A DNA stretch of 64,000 nucleotides from Ruminiclostridium papyrosolvens DSM 2782 (GTDB taxonomy: Bacteria > Bacillota > Clostridia > Acetivibrionales > DSM-1351). Below, piece after piece: positions 1 through 23,200 of the stretch. The stretch spans positions 4,083,001 through 4,147,000 of the forward strand of contig NZ_CP119677.1 of assembly GCF_029318685.1 (NCBI RefSeq). The letters are read 5' to 3'. The position numbers and the translations under genes were made by a program. The notes beneath the pieces are model-generated. The model was not told the origin of the DNA. It did no database searches and was given only the letters and a program-made list of their open reading frames with translations. Each line of letters opens with the position of its first letter. Within the stretch, counting starts at the first letter, position 1.

Positions 1-715
1 TCAGCCCGGTTCCTATGGCAGTACCTCCTAAATTTACATATTTCATCTCATCCATTGCTCTTTGCATACGGGATAAATCTCTTTTAATCGCTTCGCTGTA
101 TGCCTTGAACTCCTGACCCAGCCGAATAGGAACTGCATCTTGAAGCTGCGTCCTTCCCATTTTAATCACATCATCAAACTCAATCGCCTTTTCTATTAAT
201 GCATCATGCAGACGCTTTAGCTGTGCCTCTAATTTTATCAGCAATTTGTATGCTGTCATTTTGCCGCATGTTGGGAATACATCATTAGTAGACTGTCCAT
301 AATTTACATGGTCATTAGGATTTACAATAGAATAATCGCCTTTTTTCCCGCCTAAAATCTCAATTGCACGATTAGCAATCACTTCGTTTGCATTCATATT
401 GATAGAAGTACCTGCTCCGCCTTGTATCTGATCTACGATAAATTGATCTCTAAATTTTCCGGAAATTATTTCATCACAAGCCTTAACAATGGCATCAGTA
501 GTTTTTTTACTAATTAAACCCACTTCACAATTTGTAATAGCCGATGCTTTTTTGATTTCAACTATGCTGACAATCATATCCTGATGCATTGTCAATCCTG
601 TAATTTGAAAATTTTCTAATGCACGCAAGGATTGTATGCCGTAATAAGCCTCTTCAGGTACTTGTTTTTCACCGATAGAATCTCTTTCTATTCGGTACTT
701 AATATTATCTGCCAC
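1..715 (-). CDS. aspA: Aspartate ammonia-lyase, N-terminal half (runs off window)
   Basis: Interconverts L-aspartate with fumarate plus ammonia in the cytosol. I read it from a GTG at 715 (MADNIKYRIERDSIGEKQ...), preceded on the minus strand by a GAGGGG ribosome binding site; about 238 codons lie inside the window. It carries fumarase/aspartase-superfamily segments GAGTSINMNANEV and HVNYGQSTND. The wording of both favours aspartase over fumarase. The conserved GSSxMPxKxN signature would lie beyond the edge, so the 3' half cannot be checked. It is the last visible gene of the amino-acid operon that begins near 7.33 kb, which fits a role in deaminating imported aspartate. Family assignment is firm; substrate is inferred from motif wording and context. 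Confidence 0.88.
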   Translation of the reverse strand, partial: MADNIKYRIERDSIGEKQVPEEAYYGIQSLRALENFQITGLTMHQDMIVSIVEIKKASAITNCEVGLISKKTTDAIVKACDEIISGKFRDQFIVDQIQGGAGTSINMNANEVIANRAIEILGGKKGDYSIVNPNDHVNYGQSTNDVFPTCGKMTAYKLLIKLEAQLKRLHDALIEKAIEFDDVIKMGRTQLQDAVPIRLGQEFKAYSEAIKRDLSRMQRAMDEMKYVNLGGTAIGTGL

Positions 716-787
716 ATTAACCCCTCTATTCTTAATATAAATGATTACTTATCCATTTTTCTTAAACTCACTAAGCCGTTGATTCCA

Positions 788-1561
788 TTACTTCAATATT
801 TGTGACAGGAAAAGCTTTGTACGTTCATGCTTAGGATTTTCAAAGACTTGTGCGGGAGGTCCCGACTCAACTATATTTCCACCATCAAAGAAAATAACCC
901 TATCAGCAACTTCACGCGCAAACTTCATTTCATGCGTTACGACAAGTAACGTTTTGTCAGATTTGGCTAAAGTTTTCATAACATCAAGAACTTCCTTAAT
1001 CATTTCGGGATCAAGCGCAGAAGTCGGTTCATCAAAAAGTATAATTTCCGGCTGCATTGCCAATGTTCTGGCTATAGCCACACGCTGCTGCTGGCCTCCG
1101 GATAACTGTCCGGGATATTTTTTTGCCTGATCATGGATACCAACACGTTCCAATAACTCCAACGCAATTTTTTCAGCCTTGCTCTTAGGCCATTTCCTAA
1201 CCCATATCGGTGCAAGAGTTAAATTATCCAAAATTGTCATATGGGGAAAAAGATTAAACTGCTGAAATACCATACCGGTCTCTTTTCTTATTGCTTCTAT
1301 ATCAGAAACATTATCGGACAATTTTATACCGTTAACTGTAATTTCACCATTTTGTATTTCCTCCAAAACATTAATTGTACGAATAAATGTTGATTTTCCT
1401 GATCCCGACGGGCCTATGATAACTATTACTTCTCCACGCTTAACATCCAGTGAAACATCACGTAATACATGATGACTCCCAAACCACTTATTAATATTTT
1501 TGCATGTTATAATAGGTTCCTCATTACCAGCACTCATAACTGCTTCTTTTTCAGTCGCCAT
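788..1561 (-). CDS. aapP: Polar amino-acid ABC transporter ATPase (AapP/GlnQ type)
   Basis: Cytosolic ATPase that powers the AapJQMP-like uptake system. Of its 257 residues, Walker A (GPSGSGKST) spans about 50-58, the Q-loop glutamine is Q100, the LSGGQ signature is at 153-157, Walker B (ILFDE) at 174-178 and the switch histidine is H210. All are intact. The ATG at 1561 has AAAGGGG upstream. It follows the two permeases with an 18-nt gap, so co-translation is likely. Length and motif wording match the HisP/GlnQ/AapP subfamily. The gene symbol rests on the long permeases next to it rather than on the ATPase alone. Confidence 0.9.
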
Positions 1562-1579
1562 TTGAATCCCCTTTCTACG

Positions 1580-2755
1580 TTAAACTTTACCGTAACTAGA
1601 TGATACTTCCATGCGCTTGCTTATTTTAGATATTACTGTACATATAACAAAGAATACTGCAGCAACAAACAAGAACACTTCCATTTGCCTGCCTAAAAAT
1701 TGAGGATTTGCAACAACCCTTTTAGCAATACCCAGTAAGTCCATCAAACTTACAATAGCTACAAGCGAAGTATCCTTAAATACTTCTATTACACTGCCTA
1801 CCAAAGCCGGCACCACACTTCTCAATGCTTGAGGCATAATAACGAACGTAATTCTTTGTACATAATTTAAACCAAGTGCCTGAGCGGCCTCATACTGTCC
1901 CTGAGGGATTATTTGCATGCCGCCTCGAACCGTTTCGGCAACATACGCAGCATTAAACAAAGTAAATCCAATCATTACTCTCAAAACATTATTTAATTCC
2001 AAACCATTGCCAAGAAATAAAGGAAGAAGTAATTGTGCCCCAAACAGCACAGTTATCAATGGAACTCCGCGAATAACTTCAATATATATAATACAGAACC
2101 AACGTATTACCACAAGTTTACTACGACGACCCAGTGCCAATAAAACACCAATAGGAAATGAAAGCACGATATCTACCACTGCAATAAGTACTGTCAGCAG
2201 GAATCCTCCCCAAAGGTTTGTATTAACATCCTTCATATTTCCCACACCGTTCAGAAGAATTAATATGATCGGAACAGATAGAAGCCAGCCTAAAAAATAA
2301 TACTTCTTTATAAATTTAAACTTGTGTCCTATCCAAAATCCTGCTAATGTAAGTAAAATTTGAGTAAATGCCCACACTCTTGTTGCAATTGATACAAATG
2401 GCAATAAAAGTGTTATTGCAAATATAGCAATTATAGAGAAAGAGACTGCCTTGATAATTCCTCTTTTAATTCCCCATAAAACTCCAAGTAAAAATACTAC
2501 TACAGATAACGACAGCCAAACCCTCCACACTTCAGAAGCCGTGTATTGTCCAACCATTAAAATTTTCAGGTTTGCAGGAATTACATCCCATTTTGCCGTA
2601 ACAAATATAAATTTCAAAACAGCTTTTGCAATAAAAATTGTTATTATTGCAAATAAGCAAGTTACTATTCCGCTTATCCAACTTCCAAATAAATTTTTCT
2701 TCAACCAATCTATAATTTTCGATTTCTGCTGTAAAAAAGACATTTTAATCTCCAT
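1580..2755 (-). CDS. aapM: General amino-acid ABC permease, long AapM-type
   Basis: Membrane subunit of the amino-acid importer. At 391 residues it is much longer than the roughly 220-residue GlnP/ArtQ permeases. The long N-terminal part with several hydrophobic segments is what AapM/BztC-type subunits have. The inner-membrane component signature is in the C-terminal third (EVIRGVPLITVLF, then AAYVAETVRGGMQIIPQGQYEAAQALGL), including the EAA loop that docks the ATPase. It lies 9 nt after the other permease, so the two are probably translationally coupled and form a heterodimer. Substrate specificity cannot be read from the permease. Confidence 0.88.
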   Translation of the reverse strand: MEIKMSFLQQKSKIIDWLKKNLFGSWISGIVTCLFAIITIFIAKAVLKFIFVTAKWDVIPANLKILMVGQYTASEVWRVWLSLSVVVFLLGVLWGIKRGIIKAVSFSIIAIFAITLLLPFVSIATRVWAFTQILLTLAGFWIGHKFKFIKKYYFLGWLLSVPIILILLNGVGNMKDVNTNLWGGFLLTVLIAVVDIVLSFPIGVLLALGRRSKLVVIRWFCIIYIEVIRGVPLITVLFGAQLLLPLFLGNGLELNNVLRVMIGFTLFNAAYVAETVRGGMQIIPQGQYEAAQALGLNYVQRITFVIMPQALRSVVPALVGSVIEVFKDTSLVAIVSLMDLLGIAKRVVANPQFLGRQMEVFLFVAAVFFVICTVISKISKRMEVSSSYGKV

Positions 2756-2764
2756 ATCCTCTAT

Positions 2765-3934
2765 TTACCTTTCCACCAGCTTGTAATAATTATTAAAGCA
2801 ATTCATTAAAAATGATATCACCAAGCTGACTATCAAATAGATTGACGCCATCAAAATCATAATTTGTATAGACTGACCTGTTTGATTTATAATGGTATTT
2901 CCTATCGAAAATAAATCTGTATACCCAACTGCTATCGCCAACGTACTGTTTTTGAACAAATTTAAAAACTGGCTTGTGACTGAGGGTATTATTACACGGA
3001 AGGCTTGAGGAAGAATAACCAGACGCATAGTGGCTCCCTTTTTCATACCGAGTGCCTTTGTAGCCTCTATTTGTCCTTTAGGTACAGCCATTATACCGGC
3101 TCTTACTATTTCAGCTATAAAAGCGGAGTGGTAAATAAACAGTCCACATAAGATAGAAGCAAACTCAGAGCTGAGAACATATCCTCCTCTAAATGCCATC
3201 TTATTGATTTCAGGAATGCTTATCTGCAGAGGAGGGCTATTTGTTACCACATAAGCGACAATAACAGTAATTAAAACTGCTCCGATGCTCCAAGCCATAG
3301 GATGCATGTTTTTTCCGATTTCAACCTGTTTTTTCAGCACCACCTTCCACAATACAATTGCCGCTGCCAGACCAATCATGGCAAAGATCAGCCATATACC
3401 TGAGGATTGGTTGGTTGTAAACCATGGAATTGCCGTTCCGCGATTACTGAAAAAAATTATATTTTTAAAGTTTATATTTCTTTCAATTTGAGGAAATGGT
3501 AAAAATACTGCAAAGTAAAGAATAAAAATTTGTATTAATAAAGGGGTATTACGTATTACTTCTACATACCCTCCGGTAAGTTTCTTAACCAGCCAATTGT
3601 TTGACAATCGTCCTATACCTATAAACAATCCCAGAATTCCTGATATTACAATGCCAACCAATCCCACTTTTAATGTGTTAAACAAGCCTACCAAAAGGGC
3701 TCTTCCATAACTATCAGATGGAGTATAATTAATTAATCTGTCATCAATTGAAAAACCTGCCGTTGAATTTAAAAAATCAAATCCCAGCTTAATACCAATC
3801 TTTTGGAGACCCTTACTAGCATTTGAAATAAAGAACACAGACAATAGGATGAGTACAATCAAAAATACTGCCTGAAGAATAATTGGAATCACTTTTTTAT
3901 TATTCCATAATGGAGTCGTAGTCTTTCTATTCAT
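2765..3934 (-). CDS. aapQ: General amino-acid ABC permease, long AapQ-type
   Basis: Partner permease of the importer, about 389 residues from the chosen start (MNRKTTTPLWNNKK...). The reading frame stays open to 3961, but GGAGGTGAT lies just upstream of the ATG at 3934, which decides the start. It has an N-terminal membrane segment, a long extracytoplasmic insert, and the permease core with EVIRNTPLLIQIFIL and the EAA loop SAFIAEIVRAGIMAVPKGQIEATKALG. Such large inserts are typical of AapQ/BztB. A stem-loop separates it from the binding-protein gene upstream, which probably lowers permease levels relative to the binding protein. Confidence 0.88.
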   Translation of the reverse strand: MNRKTTTPLWNNKKVIPIILQAVFLIVLILLSVFFISNASKGLQKIGIKLGFDFLNSTAGFSIDDRLINYTPSDSYGRALLVGLFNTLKVGLVGIVISGILGLFIGIGRLSNNWLVKKLTGGYVEVIRNTPLLIQIFILYFAVFLPFPQIERNINFKNIIFFSNRGTAIPWFTTNQSSGIWLIFAMIGLAAAIVLWKVVLKKQVEIGKNMHPMAWSIGAVLITVIVAYVVTNSPPLQISIPEINKMAFRGGYVLSSEFASILCGLFIYHSAFIAEIVRAGIMAVPKGQIEATKALGMKKGATMRLVILPQAFRVIIPSVTSQFLNLFKNSTLAIAVGYTDLFSIGNTIINQTGQSIQIMILMASIYLIVSLVISFLMNCFNNYYKLVER

Positions 3935-3963
3935 GCAAAGCATCACCTCCGATGCAACCAACT

Positions 3964-4014
3964 TCCGGTATGGAGAAGGAATTTAAGCTATAAATTTAAG
4001 CACTACATACCGGA
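3964..4014 (-). promoter_or_regulatory. Stem-loop between binding-protein and permease genes
   Basis: Perfect 9-bp inverted repeat: TCCGGTATG at 3964-3972 and CATACCGGA at 4006-4014, separated by 33 nt. It lies downstream of the binding-protein stop and upstream of the aapQ ribosome binding site. No T-run follows on the minus strand, so it is more likely an mRNA-stabilising or attenuating hairpin than a full terminator. Such hairpins commonly protect the binding-protein message. Confidence 0.5.
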
Positions 4015-4053
4015 CGCCAGCTGATTCGTTCGTTTTTATTTTTATGTAGCTTA

Positions 4054-5145
4054 TCAGTTAAAAGGCGGTGAATACATCAGACCTCCGTCTGTCCACAATG
4101 CATTCAGACCACGATCAAGTTTAAATGCAGAACCCTGTCCGAGAGTTCTTTCATAAATTTCTCCGTAATTTCCGACACCTTTTATCAGCTTTACAACCCA
4201 GTCATTGCTAAGTCCTAAATTTTTGCCTAAATCCCCTTCTGCTCCAAGTAAGCTACGAATTGACGGATCATCGGATTTAACCATTTCTTCTACATTAGCC
4301 TGTGTTATTCCCAATTCCTCTGCCTGCATCAGTGCATACAACGTCCATCTTGTTACATTAAACCATTGATCATCCCCAGCTTTTATTGCAGGTGTCAACG
4401 GTTCTTTTGACAATGTTTCTTCAAGAATAGCATGCTCGTCCTGCTTACTCATGCCTGCAAGTCTTGAAACAAGTCCTGATTTATCTGATGTCCATGCATC
4501 AATACTTCCTGCTTCATATGCGGATACAATTGAATCCTGATTTTCAAAAACTACTATATTTGCTTTTGCACCTACAGCAGCTAACTTTGTTGTCACATTC
4601 TTTTCCGTAGTTGTACCCTGTTCCACACCTATTCGCATTCCGTCAAGGTCTTTAAAGGTTTTAACGTTCTTGTTTTTCTTAACCATGATACCTTGTCCGT
4701 CATAAAAATCAGTTGGTAAGAATCTTATTCCCAGAGTTGTGTCCCTGGTAATGCTCATTGTAGTTGCACGGCTTAAAATATCAATTTCTCCGGTTTGAAG
4801 AGCTGTAAATCTGGTTTGTCCTGTAACCGGCTTCATTTCTGCAGCATTTGGATCCCCGAGAATTGCAGCGGCAAATGCCTTCCCGATTTCAATGTCAAAA
4901 CCGCTGTACTTTCCATCTGTTTCCAGAAATCCAAAGCCAGGAAGAACAGTATCACAACCAATGTAAACCTTACCTCTGGCCTTTACCTTCTGAAGTATTG
5001 ATTCACTGCCCTGTCCCTTTGTACCCGATTTACCACTTGTATCGCTTTGTTCATTCGAGCTGGAACATCCGGTAACCACCAATACACTTGCCACTAACAG
5101 CATTGCCACTTTGCCTAAAGCTTTTGCATTAAATATTTTTCTCAT
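4054..5145 (-). CDS. aapJ: General amino-acid ABC transporter substrate-binding lipoprotein
   Basis: Extracytoplasmic receptor of the importer, 363 residues. The N-terminus is a lipoprotein signal with lipobox VVTGC (Cys27), so it is membrane-anchored. The mature part is a family-3 solute-binding protein: GKVYIGCDTVLPGFGF, then SGFDIEIGKAFAAAI, TGQTRFTALQTGEIDIL and MRIGVEQGTTTEKN. The C-terminal RGLNALWTDGGLMYSPP matches the ending typical of AapJ, which is why I prefer AapJ over GlnH or FliY. In its gram-negative relatives the protein is periplasmic and not a lipoprotein; the lipobox here fits a monoderm host. Broad L-amino-acid specificity is inferred from the family. Confidence 0.88.
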   Translation of the reverse strand: MRKIFNAKALGKVAMLLVASVLVVTGCSSSNEQSDTSGKSGTKGQGSESILQKVKARGKVYIGCDTVLPGFGFLETDGKYSGFDIEIGKAFAAAILGDPNAAEMKPVTGQTRFTALQTGEIDILSRATTMSITRDTTLGIRFLPTDFYDGQGIMVKKNKNVKTFKDLDGMRIGVEQGTTTEKNVTTKLAAVGAKANIVVFENQDSIVSAYEAGSIDAWTSDKSGLVSRLAGMSKQDEHAILEETLSKEPLTPAIKAGDDQWFNVTRWTLYALMQAEELGITQANVEEMVKSDDPSIRSLLGAEGDLGKNLGLSNDWVVKLIKGVGNYGEIYERTLGQGSAFKLDRGLNALWTDGGLMYSPPFN

Positions 5146-5225
5146 TTTTTCAACTCCTTAAATTTTTAAAAATATTTTACCTTTTGACTTTAGTTATACA
5201 TTTTTAAAGTATCCACTGCTTATAT

Positions 5226-6380
5226 TTATTTGCTGTGCCTGCTAATAAAGCTGCAAAGCCTTCTCACACCTTCAAGCAATTTAGATTCTTCAGTAGCATA
5301 GGATATACGTATCATCCTTGCAGTCGTTTTCCCAAAAGTAGCTCCCGGGGCAACCGATACCTTTTCTTCATTAAGCAAAGCTATTGAAAAGTCATCAGAG
5401 TCCATTCCTGTGCTTGAAATATCCACCATCATATAAAATGCACCTTTAGGATAGTAAGCCTTAATCCCTGCCTCACAAAACAAGTCATATACCTTGTCCC
5501 TACGGTTCTTATAGCTTAATCTTGCTTTTTCAACAAAGTCCTGCGGTCCCGTTATTGCTTCTTCATACGCTTTTTGTGCTACTGATGTTGCATTACCTAC
5601 CAGCGTAATCATTATCTGTGACATTGATGCAGTGATATCCTTATTCGCTACAGCATATCCGATTCTCCATCCTGTCATTGCATACTTCTTCGATGCAGCC
5701 ATAATAGTAATTACTCTGCCGTCAGTATCATATGTTTTCAATGAAACATGCTTTCCGTCAAAAATAATAGAGTCATATACTTCGTCTGAAATAATATACA
5801 AGTCATGCTTTTGAGCAAATTCAATTATCTTTTTGACTGTTGCTTCATCATAAACAGCTCCGGTAGGATTTGAAGGAGAATTAACCATAATTGCCTTTGT
5901 CTTATCAGTTATCCTGCTCTCAAGTTCACTCCAGTTGGGAGTAAACCCGGCATCCGGTTCAAGCTTATAGCTGACAGGAGTAAAGCCTTGTGCAATCAAT
6001 ATCATTTCATATACAGGCCATGCGGGATCAGGCATAAGAACTTCATCACCATGATCTGCTATAGCCATAAGTGCTGCTGTTATTGCACATACTGCACCGG
6101 AAGTTACAATTATCTCGTTTATATCTATAGAAGTGTTATAGTCCTTATTGAAATCTTCCTGAATAGCTTTTCTCAGAGTAATATAACCAGGAACGGGCGT
6201 GTATTTTGTAAAGCCTTCAAGCGCCGCTTTAGCTGCCGCCTCACTTATATTTGAGGGTGTAATAAAATCAGGTTCTCCTGTTTCCAAACGAATCGCTTCC
6301 GGAATTGCAGAAGCTAAGTTTTGCAGCTTACGTATCCCCGACTCCGGCATGCTGTTTCTTGCGATAGATAATTTTTTCAT
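5226..6380 (-). CDS. PLP-dependent class I/II aminotransferase
   Basis: Cytosolic fold-type I aminotransferase of 384 residues, aspartate-aminotransferase-like (AspC/PatA group). Visible features are the N-terminal substrate loop (IRLETGEPDF), the cofactor-binding SPSNPTGAVYD, the DEVYDSI segment and the Schiff-base lysine in AASKKYAMTGWRIGY (first K at about 231), followed by the substrate carboxylate-binding arginine region near the C-terminus (MIRISYA). It lies 54 nt downstream of the DapA-like gene and upstream of the transporter, so it probably processes an amino acid imported by AapJQMP or a keto acid released by the aldolase. The exact substrate is unknown. Confidence 0.88.
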   Translation of the reverse strand: MKKLSIARNSMPESGIRKLQNLASAIPEAIRLETGEPDFITPSNISEAAAKAALEGFTKYTPVPGYITLRKAIQEDFNKDYNTSIDINEIIVTSGAVCAITAALMAIADHGDEVLMPDPAWPVYEMILIAQGFTPVSYKLEPDAGFTPNWSELESRITDKTKAIMVNSPSNPTGAVYDEATVKKIIEFAQKHDLYIISDEVYDSIIFDGKHVSLKTYDTDGRVITIMAASKKYAMTGWRIGYAVANKDITASMSQIMITLVGNATSVAQKAYEEAITGPQDFVEKARLSYKNRRDKVYDLFCEAGIKAYYPKGAFYMMVDISSTGMDSDDFSIALLNEEKVSVAPGATFGKTTARMIRISYATEESKLLEGVRRLCSFISRHSK

Positions 6381-6434
6381 TTTAATCTCCTTTCTTTAAA
6401 CACATAATTGTAAAAATATATTTTATGGCAAGTA

Positions 6435-7328
6435 CTATTTTTTATAGCCTATCCTATTCAATTGCTCATTAAGCAGCTCAACCTCATCTTTAGTTATGTC
6501 CAATTGAGGAGCTCTCATATATCCTGCATCTATTCCTCTAAGCTTCAGAGCCTCTTTGAAAAACGACATGTTACTTCCGCCTTTTAATGTCTCAACATAC
6601 CTTACCGCAATTTTTTGAATTCTCGCAGCCTCCTCAATATTTCCGTCCATAAAGGCTTTGTAAATATCGACAAACGGTTCAGGATAAACGCACGATACTC
6701 CCGATACTACACCTGAGCATCCCATAGCAAGTGCGACATTTAACAGCCTATCAGCTCCTATAAGTACGGAAAAATTGCCTTCTCTAATCCCGAGATACTG
6801 CTGTGTTCTGACAAAATCAGGATAGCTGTATTTTATTCCCACAACATTTTCACATCTTTCCGCTATCCTCTGCGCAACATCTGCCTTAAGATCATTTGCT
6901 GAGCACTGCGGAATATTGTAAAGATAAATCGGAAAATCGGCCGGTACGCTTTTGGCAACAGCCACATAATATTCTTCTATTTCTCTGTCATTCACACCGA
7001 AAAACGATGGCGTTACAACGCCAATTCCGTCAGCACCGATTTCATTAGCATGCTTCGCAAGCTCAATCGTGTCATTTTGACACATCGCGCCAACATGGAT
7101 ATATACTGTTACTCTTCCATTTGCACTCTTAACAACCGTTTCTGCAACAGCCTTCCTTTCTTCAACCGACAAATGATACATTTCTCCGGTTGTCCCCAAA
7201 GGATACAAGCAGTTCACACCTTTTGAAATTAAAAATTCTACGATTCCGCTGACTGCCTTAATATCAACATTTCCATTTCTGTCAAAGGGCGTTACCATTG
7301 CCGTTGTAACACCATACAATTTTTTCAT
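6435..7328 (-). CDS. DapA/NanA-family aldolase (dihydrodipicolinate synthase-like)
   Basis: TIM-barrel class I aldolase of 297 residues. The Schiff-base lysine is in VGIKYSYPD (about K166), the phosphate/carboxylate loop is LGTTGEMYHLS, and the catalytic tyrosine is in the IYLYNIPQ segment. I chose the ATG at 7328 over the GTG three bases earlier because GGAGGT sits 6 nt before it. It is the first gene of the operon, diverges from the LacI regulator, and lies next to an aminotransferase and amino-acid transporter rather than lysine-biosynthesis genes. That suggests a catabolic family member (for example a 2-keto-3-deoxy- or 4-hydroxy-2-oxo acid lyase) rather than biosynthetic DapA. Substrate unknown. 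Confidence 0.85.
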   Translation of the reverse strand: MKKLYGVTTAMVTPFDRNGNVDIKAVSGIVEFLISKGVNCLYPLGTTGEMYHLSVEERKAVAETVVKSANGRVTVYIHVGAMCQNDTIELAKHANEIGADGIGVVTPSFFGVNDREIEEYYVAVAKSVPADFPIYLYNIPQCSANDLKADVAQRIAERCENVVGIKYSYPDFVRTQQYLGIREGNFSVLIGADRLLNVALAMGCSGVVSGVSCVYPEPFVDIYKAFMDGNIEEAARIQKIAVRYVETLKGGSNMSFFKEALKLRGIDAGYMRAPQLDITKDEVELLNEQLNRIGYKK

Positions 7329-7522
7329 CACATGACCTCCATTTTTATATGTACATTACGTTTACATAACCTTCAAAGCAAACAATACGGCTCTTTATCC
7401 CGTCTGTTTTTCAGATAGTGCTTTATGCTGTAGAAAATTCAGATGTTCTAAAGAAAAAACAGAAAGTAATACTCATTATTTACACATTACTTATATAATC
7501 CAACATTTGTAATAAAAATAGT

Positions 7523-7540
7523 TGTGTAAACGTTTTCACA
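7523..7540. promoter_or_regulatory. LacI-family operator in the divergent intergenic region
   Basis: TGTGTAAACGTTTTCACA is a near-perfect palindrome centred on CG (AAACGTTT core), the classic LacI/PurR/CcpA-type operator shape. It lies between the divergent DapA-like operon and the LacI-family gene, about 200 bp from each start. The encoded regulator probably binds here, controlling the operon and possibly itself. A CcpA/cre role is an alternative because the motif shape overlaps. The rest of the 7329-7743 interval is AT-rich and I see no convincing gene in it. Confidence 0.7.
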
Positions 7541-7743
7541 AGATGATAATAGCATATACACATAAATTAATCAATAATAATATACAAAAAATATTTAAAT
7601 TCGACATATTTTTTTATGTATTATGCCTACTTTATAATTCCTTCCATATTAACATGCGAATCTATCAATTAAAAATTATTGAATTTTTATACTTATTATG
7701 GTACCGTATACATGTGTAAAATAACTGAACAGGTGATTATTAA

Positions 7744-8763
7744 ATGAAAAACCCAACTATAAAAGACGTTGCTACTAAAGCCAATGTCTCAACAGCTACA
7801 GTATCACGCTATTTGAACAACAGCAGCTATGTAAGCAAGGAAGTACAGCAAAAGATAAGCAAGGTTATAGACGAACTGGATTTCGTTCCTAACTGTGTAG
7901 CCAGAAGCCTTAAGAGGACAGAAACCAATACCATAGGAATAGTTGTACCCGATCTGTCAAACGTGTCTTTTATGGATACAGTTAAGGCTATCAGTGATGT
8001 TGTTACGGCAAGTGATTACCAGCCCATCATATTAAATACCGAAGAAAGCATTGAAAAAGAGGAGAAGATTCTTGATGTTTTAGTCTCTAAGCGAGTTGAC
8101 GGTATTATAATAGCTTCTGCCGGAAAAAATGAGAAGCTGCTGAAGATCAACAGCACTAAGCTGCCGATTGTATTGTTTGACAGGGATTTTTGCAACTCAG
8201 ATGATGACATTATTATAGATTCAGTGATTAATGACAACTTCATAGGGTCATATCAGATGATAAACTACCTTATATCTCTTGGTCATAAAAAAATAGCTAT
8301 ATTGTGCAGCGAAAACAATCCAATCCTTAAAAACGACAGATTACGAGGATATATCAAAGCCCTTGAACACAATAACATAGCAATTGATGAAAACTATATA
8401 TTATATGGAAACTATGCATTCGAATCAGGTTATGAGCTAACCAAAAAGCTCATAATGCAGCCTTTGCAGCCAACAGCTATTTTTTCAGTAAACAATCTGA
8501 TGGCATTGGGCACAGTTGCAGCCTTGAACGAAATGAATATCAGCATACCCGATAAAATGTCAGTATGTGCTTTTGGAGTGTTTAAATACCATACTATCCT
8601 TAAGCCAGATTTAACGGTTGTAAATCAGAAGCCTTCCGAATTAGGGAGGATAGCTGCCGAATTGCTGATCAGCAGAATAAAGAATCCTCATGATTGGAAA
8701 CCTAAAAAGGTGGTTCTTGAAGCCGATATCATTATGCAGAACTCTTGTGCAAGACCCCGTTAG
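7744..8763 (+). CDS. LacI-family transcriptional regulator
   Basis: DNA-binding repressor of 339 residues. The N-terminal helix-turn-helix and hinge are textbook LacI: PTIKDVATKANVSTATVSRYLN, then VSKEVQQKISKVIDELDFVPN and CVARSLKRTETNTIGIVVPDLSN. The remainder is the periplasmic-binding-protein-like effector domain (VDGIIIASA, LPIVLFDRDF, AIFSVNNLMALG). The ATG has AGGTGAT upstream. It is divergent from the aldolase/aminotransferase/AapJQMP/aspA operon with a LacI-type operator between, so it most likely represses that operon. The effector ligand cannot be read from sequence. Confidence 0.92.
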   Translation: MKNPTIKDVATKANVSTATVSRYLNNSSYVSKEVQQKISKVIDELDFVPNCVARSLKRTETNTIGIVVPDLSNVSFMDTVKAISDVVTASDYQPIILNTEESIEKEEKILDVLVSKRVDGIIIASAGKNEKLLKINSTKLPIVLFDRDFCNSDDDIIIDSVINDNFIGSYQMINYLISLGHKKIAILCSENNPILKNDRLRGYIKALEHNNIAIDENYILYGNYAFESGYELTKKLIMQPLQPTAIFSVNNLMALGTVAALNEMNISIPDKMSVCAFGVFKYHTILKPDLTVVNQKPSELGRIAAELLISRIKNPHDWKPKKVVLEADIIMQNSCARPR

Positions 8764-8926: not shown

Positions 8927-9340
8927 TTATACAACACCAACAGTAATCAGAATGTTAGCAAATACTCTCTGTTCTCCGGTGGAAATGGCTATTTTTATAT
9001 TATCTTTTTTACACACATCATAAAAATCATATCGTTCAAGCTTACTAAGTTTTATCCCATCAGGTAAAAGTTCCTGAAACTCTGCAAATATCTCCGGCTC
9101 ATCGCCGCTTTCAGGAACCATTACTTCTGCACCCTCTATGGCAATAGTCTTGCCAAGTACTTCAAGAACTTGCGTAGCCAGAGGAATTCCGTGAGTCAAT
9201 CCCAAATACATCTTTGCGGTATTATTCGCTGTTTTTGATTCAAGAGGGTAATTTCCATCTGCTATGAGTACTTTATCGCCATGTCCGCAAGCAGCAAGAA
9301 GACCAATTAAGTCAGGATTTATACACGCTGTTTTTAGCAT
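8927..9340 (-). CDS. RbsD/FucU-family sugar mutarotase
   Basis: Cytosolic protein of 137 residues that, by family, interconverts anomers of ribose or fucose. The diagnostic segment is LLAACGHGDKVLIADGNYP near residue 14, which includes the active-site histidine of the CGHGD motif. The C-terminal part ends in the expected short strands (IAISTGEQRVFANILITVG). It is the last gene of an operon with a SIS isomerase and a ribokinase-family kinase, so it probably converts a freshly imported or released sugar into the form the kinase accepts. The overall wording is a little closer to FucU than to RbsD. Confidence 0.82.
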   Translation of the reverse strand: MLKTACINPDLIGLLAACGHGDKVLIADGNYPLESKTANNTAKMYLGLTHGIPLATQVLEVLGKTIAIEGAEVMVPESGDEPEIFAEFQELLPDGIKLSKLERYDFYDVCKKDNIKIAISTGEQRVFANILITVGVV

Positions 9341-9370
9341 AATACTTCTCCTTAATTTTTACAAAATTTG

Positions 9371-10015
9371 TTAACTGATTTTTTTCTCATCGTCTCTCAA
9401 TTTTCCTAATGCTCCTCCCGGATGCCACTTAATATACTGCTCGGGGGTTACATTCTTTTTACATTGCAATAGTATGCTAAGTCCTTGGAGAATAAATATC
9501 TCTGCAAGTATAGAGGCTCTCGGAGCCCTGTTCAAATAATCTCCTTCGCTTGAAACCCCTGCATATAAAAAGACTTCACTATTTTTTGCCAGCCAAGATT
9601 CCTTTTTACCTGTTACCGATATAATTTTAGCTCCGTTATTTTTTAAAGTTGTTACAGTCCCTACTAATTCAGCCGTCTCTCCGCTGTTAGATATAGCAAT
9701 AACCACATCCCCCGGCTTTACCTGACCCGATGAACCGTGTACCGCTTCAGTCCCATGCAATTCATAAGCAGGTGTCCCCGTGGACGATAATAGGGAGGCA
9801 ATATATCCGGCAACATGAGCCGGTTTTCCAATTCCGGTAATATGAACTCTGTTTCCATTACTCTCTGCGCCTAGTATTAATTCAACAGCTTCAGAGTAAA
9901 TGTCGAAATTTACATCTTCAATAAGGGCATGCATTTCTTTCATGGAAATGTTCACAAACTCTTTTAGCATAGTTTCTAATGACTGCTCTGAATCATATCG
10001 CATATTGTTGTCCAT
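9371..10015 (-). CDS. SIS-domain phosphosugar isomerase (KpsF/GutQ-like, no CBS domains)
   Basis: Single sugar-isomerase domain of 214 residues. Seen are GIGKPAHVAGYIASLLSSTGTPAYELHGTEA (sugar-phosphate loop), then the SIS Ser/Thr motif VVIAISNSGETAEL and SSEGDYLNRAPRASILAE. KpsF/KdsD-type enzymes convert ribulose-5-phosphate to arabinose-5-phosphate but carry two C-terminal CBS domains, absent here. The reaction is therefore likely another ketose/aldose phosphate isomerisation. It sits between the kinase gene (14 nt gap) and the mutarotase gene (30 nt gap), forming one operon. Confidence 0.85.
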   Translation of the reverse strand: MDNNMRYDSEQSLETMLKEFVNISMKEMHALIEDVNFDIYSEAVELILGAESNGNRVHITGIGKPAHVAGYIASLLSSTGTPAYELHGTEAVHGSSGQVKPGDVVIAISNSGETAELVGTVTTLKNNGAKIISVTGKKESWLAKNSEVFLYAGVSSEGDYLNRAPRASILAEIFILQGLSILLQCKKNVTPEQYIKWHPGGALGKLRDDEKKIS

Positions 10016-10028
10016 ATGTATCTCCTTT

Positions 10029-10997
10029 TTACTTGTAATTATTCTTCTTCATCAATGCCTGCACTTCTTCCATGGTAGGCAACGAAGTAATTGCCCCCAT
10101 TTTTGAAACAGTTACGGTCGCGGTGTAATTAGAAAAATCAAGCGCTTTATCAGGTTCCATACCCTTACACACAGCTGCACAGAAAGCACCTGTGAAAGAA
10201 TCTCCAGCTGCAGTCGGATCTACTACATCAACAATATCTATACAAGGCTTTATAACAAACATATCCTTATTCATGAATGCTACACCGTTACTGCCCAATG
10301 TAATAATTACGTTTTTCACGCCTTTTGCCAGCAAAGCATTTGCAGCCTTCTCCACCTTTTCCGTGTCAATACTGCCATCATTCTTAGTTGTCTTTATGCC
10401 TGTCAAACCATATGCCTCATGCTCATTCGGTGAAATATAAGTCAGTTTTGAAAGCAAGTCATCGTCTAATTCCTGATATGGAGCAGAATTAAGCATAACA
10501 GGAACTCCCTTTGCATATGCAAAGTCTATTACTGTCTTATTAACCTCCAGCGGAATTTCTAATTGCAAGATAACAAGGTCATACTCTGTTATTTTTTCTC
10601 TTAAAAATTCCACGTCATCAACAGTCAGTTTCATATTTGCACCAGGTACTACAATTATTCTGTTCTTTGCCTTTTTTCCGCGTGCTACTTCTAAAATGAT
10701 ATTACTGACAGCAGATGAGCAGGTTTCATCTCTCAATATATTATCAGTGTTTATCCCAGCATCCTTAATTGTTTTTAATAATTGATCCCCAAACATGTCT
10801 GTTCCAATTTTTCCAACCATGGTAACGTTTACATCAAGTCTAGAAGCCTGTACTGCCTGATTTGCTCCCTTCCCACCTGGTGCAGATGTAAATGACAAAC
10901 CATCGTTTACTGTTTCTCCTTCATTCGGAACCCTTGAAGTAGTGTAAATTAAATCCATCACAAGACTGCCTACCACTAGTATTCTAGGTGTTTTCAT
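10029..10997 (-). CDS. rbsK: Ribokinase-like PfkB-family carbohydrate kinase
   Basis: ATP-dependent sugar kinase of 322 residues. The N-terminal PfkB signature is GGKGANQAVQASRL, with the GD/N lid region VNDGLSFTSAPGG. The C-terminal signature is VVDPTAAGDSFTGAFCAAV, where the GD aspartate is the catalytic base; the usual DTT/DTxGAGD reads DPTAAGD here. Length matches ribokinase. It is transcribed after an IclR regulator and before a SIS isomerase and an RbsD/FucU mutarotase. No sugar transporter is adjacent, so the substrate may be an intracellularly released pentose or deoxysugar. Ribose is the default reading, not proven. Confidence 0.82.
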   Translation of the reverse strand: MKTPRILVVGSLVMDLIYTTSRVPNEGETVNDGLSFTSAPGGKGANQAVQASRLDVNVTMVGKIGTDMFGDQLLKTIKDAGINTDNILRDETCSSAVSNIILEVARGKKAKNRIIVVPGANMKLTVDDVEFLREKITEYDLVILQLEIPLEVNKTVIDFAYAKGVPVMLNSAPYQELDDDLLSKLTYISPNEHEAYGLTGIKTTKNDGSIDTEKVEKAANALLAKGVKNVIITLGSNGVAFMNKDMFVIKPCIDIVDVVDPTAAGDSFTGAFCAAVCKGMEPDKALDFSNYTATVTVSKMGAITSLPTMEEVQALMKKNNYK

Positions 10998-11172
10998 AGC
11001 AAATTACCGCCTTTGGTTTAAATTTTTTATATTTAAATTCTTATAACATATCGTAAATTTATATCCGTCAAGCATATATACGCTTTTTTGTAATACATTA
11101 TCCTACTTAGAATGTATGCGACGGCTTAAACACTTAGATAAACCATTGCCTATTCATCTGTCCCTTATATTG

Positions 11173-11931
11173 CTAAATTCTTCTTTCTATCATTTTAATA
11201 TACCGCTTTTCAATTTCTGCCACTTCTGCAATAAAGCTCTCCGTAAACTTGATGGACGCACCGCTTACGCTCATTGCTGCAACAACCTTGTGCTGAGCAT
11301 TAAAAATAGGCAATGCCACACATTTAACACCAAATTCATGTTCCATATTATCAATTGCATAGCCTCTCATTTTTGTAGTCCGAAGCTCTTCTCTCAGTCT
11401 GTCTTTATCTATAATCGTTTGCTCGGTATATCGTACAAAATCACGCTCTAAATACTTTGAAATATATTCCTCAGGCATATTGGAAAGAATAGCCTTACCA
11501 ATTCCCGTACAATACATATTTGCTCTTTCACCAAACAAAGAACGCATTAAATGTGTCGCCTGGGCCGGATAGGTAGCTTCCAGATACAGTACCTGATTAT
11601 CATGCGGAACTGCCAAATACACATTCTCATTTGTAATATTTGATATTTCCTGCATATAGGGTTGTGCAATTTTTGTTATAATAAAAGTATTGCCTAATGC
11701 CCTGCTTAAATCAAAAATACCTATCCCCAAACTGTATTTCTTAGTTTCTTCATCCTGCTCCACATAACCCATCTGCTGAAACGTTTCCAATATGTTGTGA
11801 ACATTACTTTTATACAAGCCTAATGTCTCACTGATTTCACTAACTCCAAGCATAGGTTTTTTAACAAAGCAGTTTAAAACATTAATTGCTTTTTGAAGAC
11901 TTTTTATTTTTACTTCCACATTATCATGCAT
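11173..11931 (-). CDS. IclR-family transcriptional regulator
   Basis: About 252 residues from the chosen ATG (MHDNVEVKIKSLQKAINVL...). The frame stays open to 12003, but AAAGGTG lies 9 nt before the ATG at 11931; an ATG at 11940 directly abuts that site and is less likely. Residues 10-70 form the winged helix (GVSEISETLGLYKSNVHNILETF), and the rest is the IclR GAF-like effector domain (CTGIGKAILSNMPEEYI, MRGYAIDNMEHEFGVKCVALPIF). It precedes the kinase/isomerase/mutarotase operon in the same direction and is its likely regulator. Effector unknown. Confidence 0.9.
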   Translation of the reverse strand: MHDNVEVKIKSLQKAINVLNCFVKKPMLGVSEISETLGLYKSNVHNILETFQQMGYVEQDEETKKYSLGIGIFDLSRALGNTFIITKIAQPYMQEISNITNENVYLAVPHDNQVLYLEATYPAQATHLMRSLFGERANMYCTGIGKAILSNMPEEYISKYLERDFVRYTEQTIIDKDRLREELRTTKMRGYAIDNMEHEFGVKCVALPIFNAQHKVVAAMSVSGASIKFTESFIAEVAEIEKRYIKMIERRI

Positions 11932-12052
11932 AATACTCATCACCTTTTGTTCTCTATTGTGGAACATCGTTCTAATTTTTTTATTACAATAAAATACTAT
12001 CACATTATTTTATCGTATTCAACATTTTTTGCATTCATTTCTATATCATTTT

Positions 12053-17059: not shown

Positions 17060-18874
17060 CTATTTACTTTGAAGTTCAATTGCTCTGTTAATTATCTTAA
17101 TTATCTCAGGAAAATCTTTATAAATTTTTAATGCTGTATTATAAACATCCATCATATTAGTAGGAGTTGTTCCATAAGGAATAGCTGTTCTCCATGCATT
17201 TGTAAATAATTGATGCTGTTGCGGAGTAACTGCCATTGAATACATTATATCGGTATTTTTAATTCCTAATAATGGTGCAAATCTTTTTTCTATAATATGA
17301 TGTGCTTGTAAACCAGTGTTTTTTAAAAGTATAGTCATATCCTTATAAGCTTCAAGCCCCCAGCTTTTGATGTTATCTTTAATTTTGCTACAAGCAGCAG
17401 TAATTAACGTTATTCTTTCTGCAAGTGTTGGCTTAGGAGGTTTTGGGGGCTTTGGTGATATTTCATTTTTATGTTGCTCCGCCCATTTTTTTATTTCTGC
17501 CTGTTCATATTTAGTAGTAGCTGTACTAGTTGGTTTAAACAATACCCAAGTAGCTACTCCTAAGGGAGTAACTCTTTTTAATACTGTATATCCAGTGACA
17601 CCGGCTTCAATAATAAATTCTCCAGCAGCAATTCCTGCCTCCACATACTTACCTAACGTGCTTGCAATTTGGCTGGCTGTTAACCAATGTCCGCTAGGAT
17701 CCATATACCTTACTGGGTCATTCTGGCAGTAAGTATAGAGATTTAGGCTCAATGGGTCAGCATCTTTCCCCCAATATGAATCCTCTGAAATAAATCTCCC
17801 AATTGTCGGATCATAGTATCTGGCCCGTAGATAATACAGTCCTGTTTCCTTATCAAAGTACTCACCACAGTACTTGAACGGATTCTCTATTCCTTCTGTC
17901 TGACTCTTTGTATTTCCCCACTCATCATATGTATAATTATTTACAATATTTCCATTTTGGTCAACCATCTGCACTACATTTCCGTGTGCATCAAACAGGT
18001 AGTAGTACATCTGTCCGTTCTTTTTCATACATATGAGGTTGATTCCACGGACATATTCGGTTTTGTCCGCACCTGTAATGTCTGCCGCTACATCTGTTCC
18101 GTCCAGTACATGGGTTGTAGTGATACCGTCTACCGTCTTGCTTTGCCTTATTCCGTCAGCATCGTACTGATATGTCGCTTTTGTGAGCCTGTTAAGTCCG
18201 TCGTACTCATAGCCCATGTCTTCCATGTTTTCGTATAGCGGTCCGCTTGTGGTGACAGATGAACGGTTGTTTCTGTCATCATAGGTATATGCTCTTTGTA
18301 CGTTTCCGGGTTCTGCTGTTGTTTTAAGCCTGCCAGGTCCGTCATATTCATAAGCCGTTTCACCTTGCGGGTCTGTTTTTGTGGCTTCGTTTGCATCCAG
18401 ATAGTAGGTGTAGCTGAATTGGGATAGTGCAGTTCCATCAGCATTTTTGTTTACTAATGTTTTTATTCTGTTTCCAAGATTGTAAGTGTAGTCTACGGTT
18501 ACGTTGTTTCCGTATGTAATTGAACTGCGGTTTCCATTTTGGTCATATGTGTATTGTGCTACCTGCTGTCCATCTTCCTTTACATTTCGGAGTCTGCCCA
18601 TATTGTCATATTCATATGCTGAGTCGTTTATTGTTTCGGTTCCCTGCTGTGATACCAAGGTTGACCTTGTACCATTGTCATTGTAGGTGTACTGTTTTGT
18701 GATTGATCCGGGTACGGTTTCTTTTAAAAGATTTCCTTTACCGTCGTATTCAAGTGTTGTTGTTTCACCATTTGTTGTTTTTGTGACCTTACGGTTTATG
18801 TCGTCGTAAGTTTTGCTTACAGTGTAAAAGACGTTCAATCCATACTTTTGATAAGCGATTACCCACTCTCTCAC
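17060..18874 (-). CDS. Orphan RHS core with alternative HNH/HHIIE-like toxin tip
   Basis: 604 codons. After a short unrelated N-terminus (MREWVIAYQKYGLN), it repeats the last YD units and core-closing segment of the 2309-residue RHS protein almost identically up to GRFISEDSYWG and the DPSG motif near residue 390. From there the sequence is unique: a hydrophobic stretch, a KPPKPPKP linker, then a tip with LQAHHIIEKRFA (H525, H526) and VTPQQHQLFTNAW (H554), resembling AHH/HNH-superfamily nuclease toxins. It has no signal peptide, starts at GTG and lacks a recognisable ribosome binding site, so it is probably a silent donor cassette that can replace the tip of the full-length gene by homologous recombination. 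Confidence 0.8.
   Translation of the reverse strand: MREWVIAYQKYGLNVFYTVSKTYDDINRKVTKTTNGETTTLEYDGKGNLLKETVPGSITKQYTYNDNGTRSTLVSQQGTETINDSAYEYDNMGRLRNVKEDGQQVAQYTYDQNGNRSSITYGNNVTVDYTYNLGNRIKTLVNKNADGTALSQFSYTYYLDANEATKTDPQGETAYEYDGPGRLKTTAEPGNVQRAYTYDDRNNRSSVTTSGPLYENMEDMGYEYDGLNRLTKATYQYDADGIRQSKTVDGITTTHVLDGTDVAADITGADKTEYVRGINLICMKKNGQMYYYLFDAHGNVVQMVDQNGNIVNNYTYDEWGNTKSQTEGIENPFKYCGEYFDKETGLYYLRARYYDPTIGRFISEDSYWGKDADPLSLNLYTYCQNDPVRYMDPSGHWLTASQIASTLGKYVEAGIAAGEFIIEAGVTGYTVLKRVTPLGVATWVLFKPTSTATTKYEQAEIKKWAEQHKNEISPKPPKPPKPTLAERITLITAACSKIKDNIKSWGLEAYKDMTILLKNTGLQAHHIIEKRFAPLLGIKNTDIMYSMAVTPQQHQLFTNAWRTAIPYGTTPTNMMDVYNTALKIYKDFPEIIKIINRAIELQSK
17712..18808 (-). repeat. RHS core repeat, orphan copy (1097 bp)
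   Basis: Nearly identical to 20961-22075 in the full-length RHS gene, same orientation, with few substitutions and one 18-bp in-frame deletion in the orphan (the full-length copy has GSHTA-encoding bases near 21430). It ends abruptly at TCGTCGTA (18808 versus 22075) and at ACTGGGTCAT on the toxin side. Recombination between the copies would exchange toxin tips. Confidence 0.92.
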
Positions 18875-20281: not shown

Positions 20282-23200
20282 TTAAAATCCTAAAATTGCC
20301 TGAGCAGCTTTTGCTGCAGCAAGTGCGCTTGCAGCATCATCTGCTATTCCAGCTCCACCTGTAAGTATGTCCTCTGCAATAGTCGCTCCTGTAATAGCAC
20401 CTGCTGCTAACATTGCTAATACAGCTCTTTTAGTATATGCCTTTTTAACTTCTGATGAAGTTACCCCAACTCTTTTACCATCATCGTTATATTTATAAAA
20501 AGAGTAACTTGCCAATCCATTATTGTCAAAGACTATGCGCATATTATAATTTCCTATAACGGCTATATCTTCAATTGGACTCATTGTAAATCCCGCTCTT
20601 AAGTTACCATCCTTCATATATTTTGCCAACTGTGCCGAACCATCTGTCCCAGCTGGTTTTACTTCCCATACTAAATTACCTGCCACAATATCAGCTTCAT
20701 ATTTTTTTGCTCCACCCCACCAATTTTTTTCAGTTTTTGATGTAATTGAATACTCTAAAGTGGAACAATACCCCATCTCATGTAACTTCTTTGCAACATT
20801 AAGTTGCGCTATTTCATGAAAAGCAGTCCATACACCAAACCCATTTGCCACCAAAGTAAAAGTGGATGCTAATCTATCATCAAATGTTCCTTTATTGTAT
20901 AAACCACTTGCAGCCCTTAAAGCATATACAGGCATATTTCCACTAGGGTCTGTATTCATTACTGGGTCATTATAACAATAAGTATAGAGATTTAGGCTCA
21001 ATGGGTCAGCATCTTTCCCCCAATATGAATCCTCTGAAATAAATCTCCCAATTGTCGGATCATAGTATCTGGCCCGTAGATAATACAGTCCTGTTTCCTT
21101 ATCAAAGTACTCACCACAGTACTTGAACGGATTCTCTATTCCTTCTGTCTGACTCTTTGTATTTCCCCACTCATCATATGTATAATTATTTACAATATTT
21201 CCATTTTGGTCAACCATCTGCACTACATTTCCGTGTGCATCAAACAGGTAGTAGTACATCTGTCCGTTCTTTTTCATACATATGAGGTTGATTCCACGAA
21301 CATATTCGGTTTTGTCCGCACCTGTAATGTCTGCCGCTACATCTGTTCCGTCCAGTACATGGGTTGTGGTTAGACCGTCTACCGTCTTGCTTTGCCTTAT
21401 TCCGTCAGCATCGTACTGATATGTCGCTGTATGTGAGCCTGTTGCTTTTGTGAGCATGTTAAGTCCGTCGTACTCATAGCTCATGTTTTCCATGTTTTCG
21501 TATAGCGGTCCGCTTGTGGTGACAGATGAACGGTTGTTTCTGTCATCATAGGTATATGCTCTTTGTACGTTTCCGGGTTCTGCTGTTGTTTTGAGCCTGC
21601 CAAGTCCGTCGTATTCATAAGCCGTTTCACCTTGCGGGTCTGTTTTTGTGGCTTCGTTTGCATCCAGATAGTAGGTGTAGCTGAATTGGGATAATGCAGT
21701 TCCATCAGCATTTTTGTTTACTAATGTTTTTATTCTGTTTCCAAGATTGTAAGTGTAGTCTACGGTTACGTTGTTTCCGTATGTAATTGAACTGCGGTTT
21801 CCATTTTGGTCATATGTGTATTGTGCTACCTGCTGTCCATCTTCCTTTACATTTCGGAGTCTGCCCATATTGTCATATTCATATGCTGAGTCGTTTATTG
21901 TTTCGGTTCCCTGCTGTGATACGAAGGTTGACCTTGTACCATTGTCATTGTAGGTGTACTGTTTTGTGATTGATCCGGGTACGGTTTCTTTTAAAAGATT
22001 TCCTTTACCGTCATATTCAAGTGTCGTTGTTTCACCGTTTCTTGTTTTTGTGACCTTACGGTTTATGTCGTCGTAGCTGTAGGTGGTTGACACATTTCCT
22101 TTTCCGTCTGCTGTTGTTACGGTTTCTGTCATTGGCCTGTTTAGATTGTCATAGGTCATAGCAATGCTGTTGCCGTTTCTGTCCGTCCTGTGTGCAAGAT
22201 TTCCGTTAAGGTCATAGCTGTCGTAAAGGTCTTCCTTGCCTGTGGAGTCAGTTACCTTGCTGAGTCTGTTATTAGTGTCATAATCATATTTGGTTACTGT
22301 GTATGTGCTGTCTCCACCGGGTACTACACTGTCAAGTCCGTTTATTGTCAGAGGGCTTGTCAGTCCCTGATACATTCTTAGCTTGTTTCCGTCTGCATCG
22401 TAGTAGTACTGGAATATGTTTTCTACTGCTCCGTTGTTGTAGGAGGTTACCTTGATGAGTTTGTTCGTCTTGTCGTATTCATAGCGGGTTTCTTTTACCT
22501 TTTCAGGCTCTCCGGGCTTGTTTGACGTTACTGTGGTTTTTGTGACATTCCCGTTTTTGTCGTAGTAGGTTTTGCTTACAGTGTAATGGGTTACTTCGTT
22601 TATTTCTTCAAATGGTGTTTTTACTATGTCATATTTATCTGATCCTTCAATTTGATTATATATATACTCTGTTTTATTTCCCTTTGGGTCCGTTGCACTT
22701 TTTATTTCCCCATCTTTGTAGTATTCGTTTGTTATCTTTGTTCCATCACCGTTAAGCTGCTCTATTTGCCTTCCGGCATAATCGTAGGTATATGTAATTG
22801 TTATTGCTTTGGTACTGTTTTCATAAGTTTTTTGGATTTTTTGTGTTTTACCTCCTGAAAGTATATTGTAGGTGTATTCTTCAAGAAGTTTTTTTGCTGC
22901 TCCTGCCTTGTCTGTATAGTATACCTTTGATAACCTGTTCATTATGTCATATTCATATTCGAATATTGCACCGTTTGGTTTTGTTTCCTTTTTCAGATTA
23001 CCGTACTGGTCATAATCATCGTATGTTGTTGTATTGTTTTCCGCATCTGTTTCAGTCCTGACCTTGCCGGAAGAATAGTACGTATACCTTACACCGTGAT
23101 TTCCTCTGTAAGTATGTGTTGATAGATTATCCAGAGATTCATCGTATTGCTTTGGCAATACCTCCTGGGTCTTCCTTCCCATTGCATCATAGGTGGTTCT

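Follow-up and report, generated by a model that had tools for sequence, protein, structure and literature searches.

Amino acid importers of the AapJQMP and BztABCD type, described from Rhizobium and Rhodobacter, are encoded in the order binding protein, Q permease, M permease, and ATPase, with two permeases of approximately 390 amino acids (aa) and a solute-binding protein extended at its C terminus, and the rhizobial Aap importers accept a broad range of amino acids. Class I pyruvate aldolases of the dihydrodipicolinate synthase (DHDPS) fold family, which include KDG aldolase, YagE, NanA, and the human 4-hydroxy-2-oxoglutarate (HOG) aldolase HOGA1, need a hydroxyl group at C4 of the 2-oxo acid for aldol cleavage. 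Relatives of both stand side by side at the left end of a 64,000-nucleotide stretch of the 5.03-Mb genome of Ruminiclostridium papyrosolvens DSM 2782 (NZ_CP119677.1, positions 4,083,001 to 4,147,000; hereafter the window). The importer encoded there shares the gene order, the long permeases, and the extended binding protein of AapJQMP and BztABCD; unlike in those systems, the binding protein is a lipoprotein in a Gram-positive bacterium, and the operon also holds a DHDPS-family aldolase, an aminotransferase, and an aspartase, opposite a LacI-family regulator. We propose, with a confidence that stops just short of even, that this is a LacI-controlled catabolic operon for a 4-hydroxylated amino acid, built on an aldolase core with exchangeable front ends; the general scheme stands at about an even chance, and no single substrate was rated as better than improbable. 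The nearest known chemistry is that of human HOGA1 (PMC3188589).

From the left edge of the window, the minus-strand genes begin with the N-terminal part of aspA, encoding aspartate ammonia-lyase (2-715), which the window edge cuts and which is complete (488 aa) at G000:C1:4082252-4083715, in the genome copy of the locus (L085; dropped from all counts as a duplicate). They continue with an AapP-like ABC ATPase (788-1561, 257 aa, PF00005), an AapM-like long permease (1580-2755, 391 aa, PF00528 and HEQRo_perm_3TM), an AapQ-like long permease (2765-3961, 398 aa as listed, PF00528), the AapJ/BztA-type binding protein (4054-5145, 363 aa, PF00497), a class I aminotransferase (5226-6380, 384 aa, PF00155), and the aldolase (6435-7331, 298 aa). 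The aminotransferase carries, by eye, the lysine motif SKKYAMTGWR, and its best PDB matches are named aspartate aminotransferase. An 18-bp operator-like palindrome, TGTGTAAACGTTTTCACA, with 8/9 pairs (7523-7540), separates the aldolase gene from the divergent, plus-strand LacI gene (7744-8763, PF00356 and PF00532). Pfam and NCBIfam profiles confirmed these gene families. A purine-rich stretch was seen by eye ahead of every minus-strand start, which for the Q permease is the likelier inner ATG (MNRK) behind GGAGGTGAT, 27 bases in, giving 389 aa. The genes from aspA to the aldolase probably share one transcript, with which the intergenic gaps of 9 to 92 bases are consistent. Scans of the window for promoters (45 hits against 45.6 in shuffles) and terminators (10 against 7.4, sd 3.0) did no better than shuffled sequence. 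The sequence-only reading had closed the operon region at 7743; the regulator begins just past that point, and conserved partner genes run to approximately 12003.

The aldolase belongs to PF00701 (221.1 bits) and aligns its Lys167 with the Schiff-base lysine of the class I pyruvate aldolases of the DHDPS/NAL superfamily; together with its GTTGE motif, these features are shared with KDG aldolase, YagE, NanA, and HOGA1, and pyruvate-type chemistry would be expected. In contrast to those enzymes, it falls into a subfamily of its own, which is marked by the motifs CLYP-GTTGEM, IPQ, and IKYS-D and forms one clade of 52 rows (100/99) in an 80-row tree, separate from 11 DapA rows. The tree omits L008 (a repeat of L086), L019 (incomplete), and L001, L004-L007, and L085 (repeats). 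Ten of the 11 DapA rows adjoin a dapB-cluster gene, with dapB model-confirmed for L003 only, and L023 was added by its residues (TIGR00674, 364.4). The aldolase scores under the cut-off of all seven NCBIfam models reported. It is 94% identical to the enzyme of Ruminiclostridium sufflavum (L033, the same record place as G003), 53-72% to those of Paenibacillus, other Bacilli, some Clostridia, and one spirochaete, and 42-50% to a further set. Among 100 relatives of the source genome G000, five have a match of at least 61% (G000, G003, G035, G009, and G010), with the next best at 35%.

Being homologous to DapA, the gene might be read as a second lysine-pathway DapA within an operon for lysine or diaminopimelate (DAP) metabolism, the more so as this class of aminotransferase includes N-acetyl-DAP aminotransferases. 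The evidence makes such a reading next to negligible in probability, and the doubt that the sequence-only reading had left on this point is settled against DapA. Cys occupies the position at which the dapB-adjacent rows carry Arg (Arg138 in E. coli numbering, which binds the semialdehyde carboxylate), and across the subfamily that position holds Cys, Leu, Asn, Ala, or His. The TIGR00674 score of 189 bits lies below the cut-off of 206.15, which the DapA proper of G000, a different gene beside dapB (L003), clears with 330. Forcing the window and L033 aldolases together with the DapA rows was rejected (p-AU 9.11e-06).

We surveyed the gene neighborhoods of the subfamily at 54 loci (L033-L080, L082-L084, L128, L129, and the window; L081, 31% identical, was excluded), counting neighbors within an 8-kb radius of the aldolase, with radius and thresholds of our choice. 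Contig ends or stretch limits shorten the flanks of several loci, including L128 and L129 (down to 2.3 and 4.6 kb, respectively, on one side) and L053, L056, L057, L067, L069, and L071. At most loci, the context is that of sugar metabolism: of the 49 loci without the aminotransferase, a sugar-type importer marker accompanies the aldolase at 41, a D-2-hydroxyacid dehydrogenase at 30, a ribokinase-type kinase at 19, a LacI of this kind at 10, FucI, DhaK, and the SIS gene at 5 each, and an IlvD/Edd dehydratase at 3 (the IlvD genes of L082 and L083 lie just outside 8 kb and were therefore not counted). A plasmid search returned three subfamily records, one of them with gene annotation; this conjugative plasmid of Klebsiella michiganensis (L163, 5472-11270) encodes LacI, DhaK, a DAK2-domain protein, the subfamily aldolase (65%), an MFS transporter, and a YhcH-family protein.

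The remaining five loci combine the aldolase with an aminotransferase and an amino acid importer, and this trio recurs in three lineages, so that the linkage noticed in the window holds in distant lineages and is not an oddity of the window alone. The same operon is present in R. sufflavum L033. In a Clostridia metagenome-assembled genome (MAG; L072), the order is aldolase (43%), aminotransferase (56%), binding protein, two short permeases, and ATPase, with aspA (72%) upstream on the opposite strand. Two genomes of another family (G430 and G722; loci L128 and L129) have an IclR gene, the aminotransferase, an ATPase, a binding protein, two short permeases, and the aldolase, followed by an HpaI-type aldolase and a XylB-type kinase, both of which score under curated cut-offs. 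Amino acid permeases occur in all five loci with an aminotransferase and in none of the other 49 (Fisher p 3e-7, computed as if related loci were independent and with L128 and L129 counted). These two loci were found through the aminotransferase, and in them the importer and the aldolase are consequently what is tested; the aldolase search had supplied L033 and L072, and with L128 and L129 set aside the count is 3/3 against 0/49. Over 8 kb, or as much flank as was available, neither a hydroxyacid dehydrogenase (0/5 against 30/49) nor a sugar-importer marker (0/5 against 41/49) was found at the five loci. The importer type varies between long Aap permeases and short permeases while the enzymes stay, and the residues that all five aligned binding proteins share include Asp216 and Asp221. 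Because an amino acid importer, of two types, is present at all five loci, an amino acid is the likely substrate.

On the aldolase tree, the trio occupies three branches, requiring by parsimony two changes in 52 rows or three in 54 (quick tree), counts that do not tell gains from losses. All aldolase-linked aminotransferases lie within one 8-row clade of a 40-row tree (100/99), in which those of the window, L033, and L072 group together (100/100); the other three rows are G806 and G702, without aldolase linkage, and G532. In a search of 391 class genomes, the aminotransferase matched seven at E 1e-80, with only G000 and G003 above 43%. The four phylum genomes other than its own with a close aminotransferase were all examined, and two had the trio and two did not. 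Queried with the L072 aldolase, the class sample gave 4/391 genomes (G000, G003, G230, and G111, the last two being loci L061 and L045). The neighbors of the G806 aminotransferase resemble an amino acid fermentation set by eye. The regulator beside the set differs: LacI in the window, IclR in L128, and in L072 a LysR gene with a regulator weakly matching the AdeR model (PucR-like by eye), located just upstream of the aldolase-aminotransferase set (L072:6567-8806).

The assignment of the importer to the Aap type, first made from the letters alone, was borne out. The genes follow the order J-Q-M-P, and each subunit matches its namesake, at 33-64% identity, in a plasmid locus of Methylobacterium nodulans and in an E. 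coli locus (L161 and L162); the GC-rich Aap loci were read by tblastn. The order and the namesake matches also hold against seven other Bacillota Aap loci. The ATPase is 62-64% identical to those of the Methylobacterium and E. coli loci and 62-72% to those of the seven Bacillota loci, the M permease best matches the third gene of Aap-type loci, and the Q permease is 42% identical over 390 aa to the Q-position gene of Methylobacterium. Both permeases are long (391 and 389-398 aa), and the binding protein, a lipoprotein by its lipobox-like VTGC (by eye), aligned through the C-terminal extension and matched PDB 4z9n over residues 50-361, with the extension covered (E 3e-91). Of 398 genomes sampled from the phylum, 10 (counting G000) have an AapQ-like permease, as do 2 of the 11 from the genus. 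From the nine other phylum genomes with such a gene, seven loci were examined over 10 to 19 kb each; Aap-type permeases and the ATPase are encoded at every one, and the binding protein at six (the L112 contig starts at the permease). A tblastn search of these seven stretches found no aldolase, aminotransferase, aspartase, or LacI, and thus the importer, which seems usually to stand apart from these genes, has been built into the operon here.

The control region was predicted to hold a LacI gene and an operator, and both the gene and an operator-like site are present, with similar sites ahead of the aldolases of relatives. With its central CG, the palindrome lies upstream of the first gene, and no second site occurs in the window at three or fewer mismatches (both strands counted; shuffles average 0.12, and 2/100 reach two matches). 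A looser form occurs at one place in the 5.03-Mb genome; since a backwards control pattern matches equally often, rarity alone proves nothing, and the stronger argument is that such sites recur ahead of the aldolases of relatives. Sites with 8/9 pairs were found just upstream of the aldolase in L033 (CATGAAAACGTTTACATG), L054, L055, and L058 among 11 related loci scanned, with L045 having one elsewhere and six having none; a looser scan added less perfect upstream sites in L082 (TGTGAAAACGATTACACA), L083, and L049. Because the palindrome core, TGAAAACGTTTACA, also fits the CcpA cre consensus, we infer rather than assert control by LacI.

Behind LacI, the minus strand carries an IclR gene, a ribokinase, an SIS gene, and an RbsD gene (8927-12003). 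The RbsD/FucU-type sugar mutarotase (8927-9340, PF05025) has 54% matches in the Anaerotruncus aldolase loci L047 and L048. The KpsF/GutQ-like SIS sugar-phosphate isomerase domain (9371-10015; TIGR00393 at 125 bits, under the cut-off of 203.7) is matched at 56-74% in L047, L048, L065, L082, and L083, and the ribokinase-type PfkB kinase (10029-10997; TIGR02152 at 296.9 bits against a cut-off of 299.65) at 42-92% in L033, L047, L048, L065, L082, L083, and L084. The whole arm is thus found in L047 and L048, ribokinase and SIS with no RbsD detected in L065, L082, and L083, and in L033, as far as it is in view, only the ribokinase. The congeners G009 and G010 share with the window LacI (79-81%), ribokinase (74-81%), SIS (72-74%), the operator-like site, and the aldolase as first gene (61-62%). 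In contrast, the entire tail behind the aldolase differs: theirs comprises a hydroxyacid dehydrogenase, DhaK, a DhaL-like gene, a sugar ABC importer, a zinc dehydrogenase, and an IlvD/Edd dehydratase. Since LacI, the operator-like site, and the arm are kept while the tails differ, the inducer is probably a metabolite that both tails share, which would point to the aldolase substrate or the aldehyde product. The earlier suggestion of a sugar-acid-like inducer fits the relatives' aldolase context (sugar importers, hydroxyacid dehydrogenases, IlvD/Edd, ribokinase, FucI, and DhaKL), and for the inducer itself it stands as a conjecture. That the aldolase was inherited together with LacI within the genus is disfavored, as a clade of the window, L033, G009, and G010 was rejected (p-AU 0.0007, weakened by the naming of this group after the tree had been viewed).

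The conserved head also invites the view that the aldolase acts on a sugar acid (a 2-keto-3-deoxy-aldonate) that enters otherwise, the importer, aminotransferase, and aspartase being a general amino acid or nitrogen module on the same promoter, for instance, one converting pyruvate to alanine. The sugar-importer marker at 41 of the 49 other subfamily loci, the conserved LacI beside the sugar-acid-type operons of G009 and G010, the ribokinase, SIS, and RbsD genes adjoining the window operon, and the broad range of rhizobial Aap importers all agree with it. We nevertheless regard it as rather unlikely, given the recurrence of the trio in three lineages with differing importers, the lack of a sugar-importer marker or hydroxyacid dehydrogenase near any of the five loci, and the finding that the hydroxyacid dehydrogenase of G009 has only 32-37% matches in G000.

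Under the catabolic route that we favor, the Aap-type importer would take up an alpha-amino acid with a C4 hydroxyl, possibly polyhydroxylated and sugar-like, and the aminotransferase would convert it to a 2-oxo-4-hydroxy acid, which the aldolase would cleave to pyruvate and an aldehyde. The amino group would pass to oxaloacetate, aspartase would then split the aspartate into fumarate and ammonia, and the adjacent kinase and isomerase would handle the aldehyde, all of these steps forming a single pathway. The aspartase itself is well recognized by PRK12273 (697.7 bits against a cut-off of 510) and falls just below the cut-off of TIGR00839 (662 against 681.2). It is the sole match in G000 at E 1e-60, and 3 of 11 genus genomes have a match, G010 at 46% only. 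Its gene is nearby at three of the five loci with an aminotransferase and at none of the other 49; the linkage expected for it thus recurs in L033 and L072 and was not found in the third lineage, and the aspartase looks accessory to the trio.

Several points weigh against this route. The adjoining ribokinase-SIS-RbsD arm would fit a sugar aldehyde, and among natural compounds no sugar-like 4-hydroxy amino acid stands out as a candidate. The aminotransferase may act in a different step, having close relatives in G806 and G702 without the aldolase. Related loci are few and represent three lineages, a MAG among them; no aspartase was found in the L128 and L129 stretches; and parts of the aldolase tree drew long-branch warnings. 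The 0/49 permease count may also miss one case, as L057 (2-571, 2678-3715) pairs a subfamily aldolase with an amino acid-type ABC ATPase (53% to that of the window) that runs off the contig end on the other strand, and may be a further amino acid-linked locus, with no aminotransferase in view.

A more specific form of the route would take 4-hydroxyglutamate, or its 4-methyl analogue, through transamination to 4-hydroxy-2-oxoglutarate, whose cleavage would give pyruvate and glyoxylate; such a route would be the bacterial counterpart of that of human HOGA1. The IclR-family gene (11173-12003, minus strand), which is 41% identical to the IclR gene opening the L128 cluster, has BhcR, a glyoxylate-related regulator, as its nearest NCBIfam model (173 bits, cut-off 350), and an AapJ-type binding protein and an aspartate-aminotransferase-like enzyme suit an acidic amino acid. 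HOG aldolase performs this very reaction (PMC3188589). However, the operon has no glyoxylate-handling gene, sugar kinases adjoin in two lineages, and the residues found in the subfamily at the DapA-arginine position, a possible contact for the distal carboxylate, are not Arg but the five named above, leaving this substrate improbable.

Returning to the general route, its aldolase core would be served by three front ends, each able to yield a 2-oxo acid, the starting compound being a 2-hydroxy acid for the dehydrogenase, a 2,3-dihydroxy acid for IlvD/Edd, and a 2-amino acid for the aminotransferase. In relatives, the same aldolase would act behind the D-2-hydroxyacid dehydrogenase or the dehydratase, with sugar importers, and in the window the front end and importer would have been swapped for amino acid ones, with LacI, the operator-like site, and the ribokinase-SIS-RbsD arm retained. 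The fuller modular scheme, in which one subfamily cuts 2-oxo-3-deoxy-4-hydroxy acids, the dehydrogenase, dehydratase, or aminotransferase is attached with a matching importer, and the window is the sugar-like or 4-hydroxy amino acid version, is offered tentatively, as a possibility well short of even, and the papers found do not describe it. In its boldest form, the aldehyde may be an aldopentose such as D-arabinose, and the sugar-side members may be 3-deoxyoctulosonate-type aldolases, an activity to which, to our knowledge, no gene has been assigned. This idea derives from the ribokinase and arabinose-5-phosphate-isomerase-like SIS here and from FucI with ribulokinase in L045, L050, and L059; it is not matched by L128 and L129, which have a XylB-type kinase instead. 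L-fucose isomerase is linked with the subfamily in L045, L050, L052, L059, and L061, beside TRAP- or Tct-type importers, with a ribulokinase-cluster gene also present in the first, second, and fourth of these; this linkage suggests such an aldopentose as a product of the aldolase.

Elsewhere in the window, positions 20282-27211 encode a 2309-aa protein that combines a subtilase domain with Kelch-type and RHS repeats, neighbored by a second subtilase gene (27227-29017) and a further RHS-repeat gene (17060-18874). Near the right end, a transposase-like gene has a Mu-type C-terminal domain (60185-61666, PF22483).

All parts of the locus belong to known families. Their combination was not found in the open-licence papers searched and appears new in that literature; what is new here is the presence of an aminotransferase and an amino acid importer beside this aldolase subfamily in three lineages. 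The window and its congeners offer a natural case in which a probable repressor gene and its site are kept while the operon behind them differs, being of the sugar-acid type in some and of the amino acid type in others. If the proposed route is true, it would provide a testable path for the breakdown of hydroxylated amino acids by a sugar-acid-type aldolase, and it would supply an annotation rule for genes labeled "dihydrodipicolinate synthase family protein," whereby the front-end enzyme and the importer tell the substrate class.

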